64,000 nt of DNA, taken from contig DASYUQ010000126.1 of NCBI GenBank assembly GCA_036001065.1, positions 1 through 64,000 on the forward strand, in the 5' to 3' direction. The stretch comes from Candidatus Methylomirabilota bacterium. Its GTDB lineage: Bacteria; Methylomirabilota; Methylomirabilia; Rokubacteriales; CSP1-6. Positions 1,797 through 58,779 of this stretch are shown here, in pieces; position 1 is the stretch's first letter; each line of letters opens with the position of its first letter. The translations under genes were made by a program, and so were the position numbers. Below the pieces are notes generated by a model that saw only the letters and a list, made by a program, of their open reading frames with translations, had not been told where the DNA came from and did no database searches.

Positions 1797-2471
1797 ATGC
1801 GGACTGACCGGTTCCTGATGACCGCGGTGCTCGTGGCGGTGGCGGTGACGGCCTGGGCGGCGGAGCGCGTCGTCGTCGAGGACTGGCTGAAGCACCCCGT
1901 GGGCGCCAAAGGGATCCCGCCCGGCTGGAAGGGGCAGAACTGGGGGAGCCCGGCCTACGACTTCGCCGTCGTGGAGAACGACGGTAACAAAGTGCTGCAC
2001 CTCAAGAGCCGGGACGAGGGCTCGACGATCAGTAAGGAGATCAAGGGCAAGGTCAACCTGAAGGAGACGCCGATCCTCGAGTGGAAGTGGAAGGTCGTGA
2101 CGCTGCCCCAGGGCGGCGGATCCTGCAACAAGACGACCGACGACCAGGCCGCCCAGGTCTACCTCACGTGGCCGCGCTTCCCCGAGCAGCTCCGCTCCCG
2201 GATCATCGGCTACGTGTGGGACACCACCGTGCCGGCGGGAACGATCTGCAAGAGCGAGAAGACGGGTACCGTCACCTACGTCGTTCTGCGCTCCGGCCGA
2301 ACCGATCTCGGCAAGTGGGTCACCGAGCAGCGGAACGTGCGGGACGACTTCAAGAAGATCTACGGCGAGGAGCCGGAGAACCCCGCGGCTGTCTCCCTCT
2401 CCATCGACTCCAACGACACGCACTCGACGGCGGAGGTGTTCGTGGGCCCGATCGTCTTCAGAAAGCCGTGA
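1797..2471 (+). CDS. DUF3047 domain-containing exported protein
   Basis: The protein has 224 residues from the ATG at 1797; an in-frame ATG at 1785 would add four. GAGG at 1787-1790 is well placed for the later start. A signal peptide (FLMTAVLVAVAVTAWAA) precedes the mature domain, which starts at about ERVVVEDWLKHP. The body matches DUF3047: GWKG, VLHLKSRDEGSTISKEI, LEWKWKV, a DDQAAQVYLTWP block, and a late SIDSNDTHSTAEVFVGPI. The biochemical function of DUF3047 is unknown. The stop codon overlaps the GTG of the next gene (GTGA), so the two are probably co-translated. Confidence 0.8.
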   Translation: MRTDRFLMTAVLVAVAVTAWAAERVVVEDWLKHPVGAKGIPPGWKGQNWGSPAYDFAVVENDGNKVLHLKSRDEGSTISKEIKGKVNLKETPILEWKWKVVTLPQGGGSCNKTTDDQAAQVYLTWPRFPEQLRSRIIGYVWDTTVPAGTICKSEKTGTVTYVVLRSGRTDLGKWVTEQRNVRDDFKKIYGEEPENPAAVSLSIDSNDTHSTAEVFVGPIVFRKP

Positions 2472-3121
2472 CCGATCCGCGCGAGTTCGTCCGGACGCTG
2501 GCCGACGAGAACGCCGCGTTCTGGAAGGGGCGCGACGTCCGCCTCGACCCCGGGGCGCCGGCCGGGCGACGCCTCCAGCAGATCCGCTACCGCATGCGCC
2601 AGGGCGTGTACAACGAGCTGCGCTCCGTCGAGCTGCTGGCCGCGTGGATCCCCTACACGCCCGAACGGGAGATCCGGGAGCTGCTGGCCAGTCAGCTCGA
2701 CGACGAGCATCGCCATTGGCGCTTGCTGCGCCAGCGGCTCATCGCGCTCGGCGAGGACCCCGACGCCTACCGCGCGCTTCCCGAGTGGGAGGCGCTCTTC
2801 GACTGGCTCGTCGCCGCCCGCGCCCGCCCCACCCTCGAGCGCCTGGCCATGTTCCAGTTCGCCGGCGAGACGCAGTCCTGCGAGGGCTTCGAGACGCTCA
2901 TCGCCCTGGCTCGGGACGTCGACCCCGAGACGGCCGACCTCTACGCCAGGGAGATCCTGCCCGACGAGTACCGCCACGCCGCCATCGGCCACCGGGGCCT
3001 GCACCTGCTGGCCGACACGCCGGAACGTCAGCAGCTCGCGCGGGCGGCCTGCCGCGAGATGAACGAGCGCATCCTGGCCGCCTACCGCGCCCACCGGATC
3101 CGCGCCGACCGCGGCGACTAG
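2468..3121 (+). CDS. ferritin-like (possibly diiron) domain protein
   Basis: The protein has 217 residues from a GTG at 2468 that overlaps the stop of the DUF3047 gene. It is all-helical, with carboxylate/His motifs spaced as in ferritin-like four-helix bundles: DDEHRHW near residue 78, AGETQSCEGFE near 135, and EILPDEYRHAAIGHRGL near 165. These could ligate a diiron centre. The substrate is unknown. The TAG stop at 3119-3121 lies inside a CTAG tetranucleotide, exactly where the adjacent inverted-repeat element begins, so the element is inserted at the stop codon and preserves it. Confidence 0.7.
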   Translation: MTDPREFVRTLADENAAFWKGRDVRLDPGAPAGRRLQQIRYRMRQGVYNELRSVELLAAWIPYTPEREIRELLASQLDDEHRHWRLLRQRLIALGEDPDAYRALPEWEALFDWLVAARARPTLERLAMFQFAGETQSCEGFETLIALARDVDPETADLYAREILPDEYRHAAIGHRGLHLLADTPERQQLARAACREMNERILAAYRAHRIRADRGD

Positions 3122-3232
3122 TGCCGTTCCAACTATTCGCGCCTAGTGCCGTTCCAACTATTCGCGCATAGGAAGGCACCGTGTACGTCGTTCGTGGACA
3201 GATTTAGTATCAACAAGTTGGAACGGCACTAG
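3118..3232. mobile_element. miniature inverted-repeat element, copy 1 (IS630-type MITE candidate) with duplicated left end
   Basis: The ends are perfect 17-bp inverted repeats, CTAGTGCCGTTCCAACT on the left and its complement on the right. The 90-bp element at 58690-58779 is the same sequence, except that here the left 25 bp is present twice in tandem (giving 115 bp) and one base differs (cgcgca versus cgcgcc). No coding capacity is seen. The outer CTA...TAG arrangement fits insertion at the TA of CTAG, the known target preference of IS630-family elements. Its parent transposase is not in the window. Confidence 0.75.
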
Positions 3233-58689: not shown

Positions 58690-58779
58690 CTAGTGCCGTT
58701 CCAACTATTCGCGCCTAGGAAGGCACCGTGTACGTCGTTCGTGGACAGATTTAGTATCAACAAGTTGGAACGGCACTAG
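58690..58779. mobile_element. miniature inverted-repeat element, copy 2 (IS630-type MITE candidate)
   Basis: This is the 90-bp form, with 17-bp perfect terminal inverted repeats CTAGTGCCGTTCCAACT and their complement at the right end. It matches the copy at 3118-3232 except for that copy's extra 25-bp left end and one base. An internal CCTAGG includes another CTAG, the site where copy 1 carries its extra left-end unit. It encodes no protein. Confidence 0.8.

Follow-up and report, generated by a model that had tools for sequence, protein, structure and literature searches.

Short CTAG-flanked repeats in a Methylomirabilota genome: possibly a new, unusually small kind of jumping DNA

An element at the stop codon of a host gene

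The window analysed here, a stretch of 64,000 nucleotides from a Methylomirabilota genome (G000), contains two copies of a short repeat whose parts are listed in Table 1. The first copy abuts a host gene, whose reading frame closes with GGC GAC TAG, and a CTAG stands at both edges of the element. Its two arms, at 3118-3134 and at 3216-3232, form a perfect inverted repeat, complementary at 17 of 17 positions. In its standard form the element measures 82 bp between CTAGs, again with 17-bp perfect arms when the CTAG is counted, and the first window copy is atypical in having an extra 25-bp tandem left end (3118-3142, followed by 3143-3167). The element is a MITE in its features: short and non-coding, with terminal inverted repeats, a target duplication and a longer parent that has the same ends.

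Table 1. Features of the two element copies and of the host gene (window positions)
Feature	Position	Strand	Remarks
Host gene, 217 aa, predicted haem-oxygenase-like (CADD/TenA/PqqC-type) fold	2468..3121	+	GTG start overlaps upstream DUF3047 gene
CTAG at end of host gene = left CTAG	3118..3121	+	TAG 3119-3121 is the host stop; empty site in G001
Extra left-end unit	3122..3142	+	with 3118-3121, a 25-bp tandem unit
CTAG junction joining two tandem left-end units	3143..3146	+	
Left end unit of 82-bp element (TGCCGTTCCAACTATTCGCGC)	3147..3167	+	
Subterminal box	3168..3171	+	usually CTAG, here ATAG (mutated); on conserved CNAR box, +22-25
Right unit, including right inverted repeat 3216-3228	3172..3228	+	
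GIY-YIG gene remnant in right unit	start GTG 3181, TAG 3205-3207	+	8-codon stub
Right CTAG, duplicated target	3229..3232	+	TAG is the nuclease-gene stop in full-length relatives
Second window copy, standard 82 bp	58694..58775	+	flanking CTAG 58690-58693 and 58776-58779

The original prediction held that the element had inserted at the host stop codon and regenerated it, and that a relative would keep an empty CTAG at this position. Both are borne out. The ortholog in a genome of the same genus (G001, locus L062; 94% at the amino acid level) reads CGGCGACTAGGAGAGCCGG, an empty site with a single CTAG (gaCTAGgag) and the same stop. The duplicated target is CTAG, as seen from one CTAG in the empty sites of this relative versus two around the element, and the actual length of the duplication could be TA or CTAG. 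Symmetric flanks other than CTAG (CCAG, CTGG, TTAG) are rare.

The description of the host gene as ferritin-like proves wrong at the level of the fold. A Pfam search with the host protein gave no match, and its structural model (pLDDT 93) is closest to TenA, CADD and PqqC folds (TM about 0.65-0.70), with no E-value below 1e-3. Residues E50/E55, E80xxH83, E134 and E167xxH170 are invariant in the homologue alignment. We therefore reject the ferritin identity; on the model, the protein is predicted to be haem-oxygenase-like and may bind metal.

Copy number and insertion at stop codons

Within the 4.46 Mb of G000 (239 contigs), the end sequence matches 363 times, against 15 matches for a reversed control pattern, and the core matches 155 times, numbers well above what chance would give. 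In the 684 kb of DNA examined around copies, 133 copies have both ends. Almost all of these (131) measure 82 bp, 100 share one identical 82-bp sequence, and 127 lie between two CTAGs, which is the target pattern that had been predicted for the genome's copies. The element is absent from G001, the one same-genus genome compared. For thirteen insertion sites, an alignment to 716 kb of this relative was possible; none of the 13 carries the element there, and six, including the window site, keep one CTAG. Because the core copies number some 155, 100 of the 133 both-ended copies are identical and the relative's sites lack the element, the burst is recent.

The preference for stop codons was measured after splicing out the elements and calling genes with a simple heuristic codon model. 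For 77 of 122 mapped insertions in G000, the site is exactly a CTAG that supplies the TAG stop of a gene; 38 lie between genes and 7 within them. The background, consisting of 172 CTAGs that have no insertion, from the same DNA near the insertions, divides into 51, 79 and 42, respectively (stop versus rest: odds ratio 4.06, p=1.5e-8, Fisher's test; related copies in the same genome are not independent observations). The share at stops, where copies had been expected, is about 2.1 times that among unoccupied CTAGs. This bias persists under stricter gene-score cut-offs, and insertions inside genes are depleted (p=1.3e-5). A cruder test based on open reading frames, applied to other genomes from several phyla, places 50 of 80 versus 119 of 508 at stops (odds ratio 5.4, p=1.6e-11).

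CTAG itself is under-represented (344 occurrences versus 1876 expected from composition) and is low in the relative too. Scaled from the density in the relative, the total in G000 is estimated at roughly 1,200, so that insertions may occupy about one in eight of them. We propose that insertions would gather at stops through the rarity of CTAG within genes and its frequency, as C plus TAG, at gene ends. There, an insertion would survive selection because the stop is regenerated. The window site had been put forward as a clean example of a harmless insertion, and harmless it is, yet this understated the case, since insertion at stop codons is the dominant mode.

Two other readings of these counts deserve consideration. 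The stop bias might arise from a benefit, such as a hairpin at the 3′ end, or from active targeting, for instance of transcribed gene ends, rather than from survivorship. Stops are indeed over-used about threefold even against unoccupied intergenic CTAGs (odds ratio 3.1, p=2e-5), and copies at stops are slightly more often in same-strand orientation (49:28, p=0.02). We nevertheless consider benefit or targeting unlikely: occupied and unoccupied stop CTAGs have similar flanks, the element sequence shows no evident T-tract terminator, and the depletion inside genes fits selection, which could also thin intergenic copies on the promoter side. That many contigs terminate at the repeat, as is expected of a draft MAG, might suggest an artefact of assembly or binning, or a structural repeat that does not move. 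This has next to no probability and is refuted in practice by matched CTAG flanks in about 120 different places in the genome, by the empty sites in the relative and by the occurrence of the same ends across many independent assemblies.

The longer parent and its relatives in other phyla

Elements of 312 bp with the same ends and CTAGs occur in G000 (C5, C33, C116, C187 and C202), together with pieces at contig ends. The 82-bp form corresponds to the left ~42 nt and the right ~40 nt of this longer element, and on that correspondence we conclude that it arose by deletion from a GIY-YIG mobile element of ~312 bp and is probably non-autonomous. The term MITE, used in the original prediction, suits the short derivative, but the parent is a GIY-YIG unit and no known insertion sequence.

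The sole open reading frame of the 312-bp element encodes a 93-aa GIY-YIG protein (PF01541, E=4e-11). It enters the right repeat, where AAG TTG GAA CGG CAC TAG encodes KLERH and takes its stop from the CTAG; this ending is invariant in all seven of the nuclease proteins aligned. Outside the terminal codons, dN/dS is 0.08-0.38 where not saturated, indicating that the nuclease gene is under purifying selection. A profile search matches UPF0213 1zg2 (E=6.9e-10), and the predicted fold (pLDDT 81) is nearest to UPF0213, then to Slx1, with no Foldseek E-value below 1e-3. No close homologue was found in a search of plasmids, phages and viruses. Probable catalytic residues are missing from several full-length copies (a stop in C33 and Gly in L279 at E62; Cys16 in L242; Cys5/His16 in L380), as expected of decaying elements. 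Genome G052, with about 125 end pairs, contains no intact GIY-YIG copy; the short copies there are old and have diverged.

When GTDB contigs were scanned for CTAGTGCCGTTCCAACT, at least 120 stretches matched, and their sources include MAGs of Methylomirabilota, Acidobacteria, Gemmatimonadetes, Nitrospirae and Tectomicrobia. Further sources among the matches listed are MAGs of Beta-, Gamma- and Deltaproteobacteria, Omnitrophota, Armatimonadetes and Bacteroidetes; matches that consist of one isolated end, such as those in Bacteroidetes, may have arisen by chance. Full-length GIY-YIG elements of 301-318 bp, which have these ends and in most cases lie between CTAGs, are found in at least five phyla (Nitrospirota, Gemmatimonadota, Acidobacteriota, Deltaproteobacteria and Methylomirabilota). 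Short copies of ~100 bp are also present in other genomes. Among 71 distinct examples, preselected at 98-102 bp, both ends retain the 13-bp repeat together with a T-rich stretch and, at +20-25, a GCCNA box; there is little conservation past +27, and the interior shows no favoured RNA fold (z about 0). The distance between paired ends is 99-101 bp in 67 of the 104 pairs counted in other genomes. This length is held despite unrelated interiors, and the sizes of 64 and 82 bp in G000 and the common 100 bp form steps of 18 bp. Two copies, at the 3′ end of L140 and at about 2690 in L172, both break at CAGATTTAG into a common CCCCGATCCGAAAT and then diverge.

The GCCNA box of the short copies falls at the position of the internal CTAG in the G000 element, and the tandem units of G000 (25, 61 and 86 bp) are all joined at CTAG. 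These junctions suggest that the internal box can serve as a target or cut site, and the arrays are equally well explained by insertion of one copy into the internal CTAG of another, together with deletion. Lone left or right units at other CTAG sites are absent from the G000 DNA examined, which argues against simple cutting and ligation at every CTAG; movement therefore seems to need both ends. In another Methylomirabilota genome, diverged tandem arrays of 25-bp left ends (L301 5671-5860 and L328 247-338) are joined at CTAA or CCAA, not at CTAG.

Candidate mechanisms and known systems

No transposase of the IS701, IS630, IS481, IS4/IS5 or Y1 families lies between any of the end pairs examined, and the GIY-YIG gene is the only gene ever found there. 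As to candidate drivers elsewhere in the genome, the IS701 domain DDE_5 (PF13546) is absent from G000 and eight other genomes searched, and the IS630 domain DDE_3 (PF13358) is absent from G000. IS481 has eight matches in G000; the four loci read do not have these ends as termini, and one of them merely has an 82-bp copy adjoining. For IS4/IS5 there is a single DDE_Tnp_1 match in G000, with these ends not nearby. Y1 is represented in G000 only by a split remnant that has no copies beside it; G052 has no Y1, and the remaining Y1 genes of G050 and G055 are unflanked by copies. Two long end pairs in other genomes enclose no transposon and turned out to be two separate ~100-bp copies (L300) and a degenerate copy plus ordinary rsmG/parA/parB-type genes (L348). 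At L436 in G055 (634-2025), a 333-aa Y1/RAYT-type gene sits between two element copies of ~68 bp, and the host sequence left of both looks similar by eye.

The family has defined ends, a duplicated CTAG, a recent amplification and a selected nuclease gene that shares those ends, and no transposase with these ends accompanies it. We infer, from sequence, that the nuclease moves the element. It would recognise paired, possibly hairpin-forming ends, each composed of the 13-17 bp inverted repeat and the GCCNA box, and would cut at CTAG; the cut element would be joined into a new CTAG, duplicating the target, and short copies would be mobilised in trans. To our knowledge, no strand-joining activity is described for a 93-aa nuclease; the joining step would then fall to host enzymes or to a reaction as yet undescribed. 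Also weighing against the nuclease as the mover are the catalytic losses in full-length copies, the lack of an intact GIY-YIG copy in G052 (though the short copies of that genome are old) and the Y1 gene at L436. The feature in the window is thus described, probably correctly, as an 82-bp non-autonomous derivative mobilised in trans, its GIY-YIG parent moving by means of the nuclease. We lean somewhat less firmly, if still on the side of acceptance, towards the wider proposition that ~310-bp autonomous transposable elements in at least five bacterial phyla are moved by one GIY-YIG nuclease, without a DDE, tyrosine or serine enzyme, and spare their hosts by way of CTAG stops.

Insertion sequences of the IS630, IS5, IS701 and IS481 types use CTAG or YTAR targets, and, like the present element, duplicate a CTAG-type target on insertion. 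An ordinary MITE driven in trans by a DDE transposase of one of these types, with the GIY-YIG gene as a passenger, would account for the IS-like traits (a 4-bp CTAG target, TG..CA ends and short perfect inverted repeats), and IS481 and IS5/IS4-type transposases are present in G000. Such a driver is nonetheless improbable given the searches above: its gene is never enclosed by these ends, two of the candidate domains are missing from the burst genome, and the matches to the others that were read there lack these ends. Further, the one enclosed gene is under purifying selection and has its C-terminus encoded by the end itself. The autonomous unit is about 1/4-1/3 of the length of a typical insertion sequence. 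Mobilisation by a RAYT (Y1 tyrosine transposase), with hairpin ends acting as in REP elements, has an even smaller probability. REP elements have a tetranucleotide at the base of the hairpin, which the CTAG at the hairpin base here resembles; both are multicopy, hairpin-forming sequences near genes, and the Y1 gene at L436 is flanked by copies. However, an intact RAYT is missing from the genome that underwent the burst and from G052, other Y1 genes in G050 and G055 stand apart from copies, and the likeness of the host DNA beside both G055 copies means that the pair may be a segmental duplication. The target duplication and nuclease-bearing parent also differ from REP/RAYT systems.

The element also differs from other known systems. 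Bacterial MITEs are likewise short, lack a full open reading frame, have perfect inverted repeats and target duplications, reach many near-identical copies and arise as internal deletion derivatives. Here, unlike in those, the parent has a GIY-YIG nuclease instead of a transposase, the CTAG target comes with a preference for stop codons, and ~100-bp versions in other phyla keep length and ends, not interior. Free-standing GIY-YIG homing endonucleases, such as relatives of I-TevI, are also the only gene of a selfish unit. A homing endonuclease copies into one cognate site via flanking homology, whereas the present copies occupy more than 100 unrelated contexts that have only CTAG in common, with inverted repeats and a target duplication; we therefore reject a homing element. 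The closest proteins in sequence and fold are UPF0213 and Slx1 (PDB 1zg2, 1ywl, 6seh), for which the searchable literature holds no description as parts of inverted-repeat mobile elements.

Other small GIY-YIG genes also adjoin repeats. Three of them (L250, L262 and L269, about 1300-1950) lie beside TCATTGCGAGC or GCAATC-type palindromic repeats, which suggests a wider class of GIY-YIG-linked short elements. Those at L247, L248 and L245 lie next to partial tRNA-like sequences in duplicate (GGGGCCGTGGTGTAGCCTGGTTAACACG; CCCCGGCAGCTCAATGGTGGAGCGAG), as though tRNA genes had been their insertion sites, and at L261 (around 1350-1800) a GIY-YIG gene lies between a 23-nt inverted repeat (ATCTCAGTGCTTGATTTCATATG) and more hairpins.

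Known DNA transposons are grouped by enzyme into DDE, HUH/Y1, tyrosine, serine and Cas1-like types. Our literature search, with preprints and most subscription papers outside its scope, found no description of the present element, which may represent a new type of jumping DNA of unusually small size. If so, a mobile unit with a GIY-YIG nuclease as its sole gene would add a class of transposon enzyme, and, at ~310 bp, few known autonomous mobile elements would be as small. A 2006 survey of GIY-YIG proteins left open whether others of them act as molecular parasites (PMC1564403), and such a unit would settle that point too. The family accounts for a repeat found in many environmental phyla, and provides a quantified case of target choice that renders insertions harmless, about 60% of which hit and regenerate stop codons.
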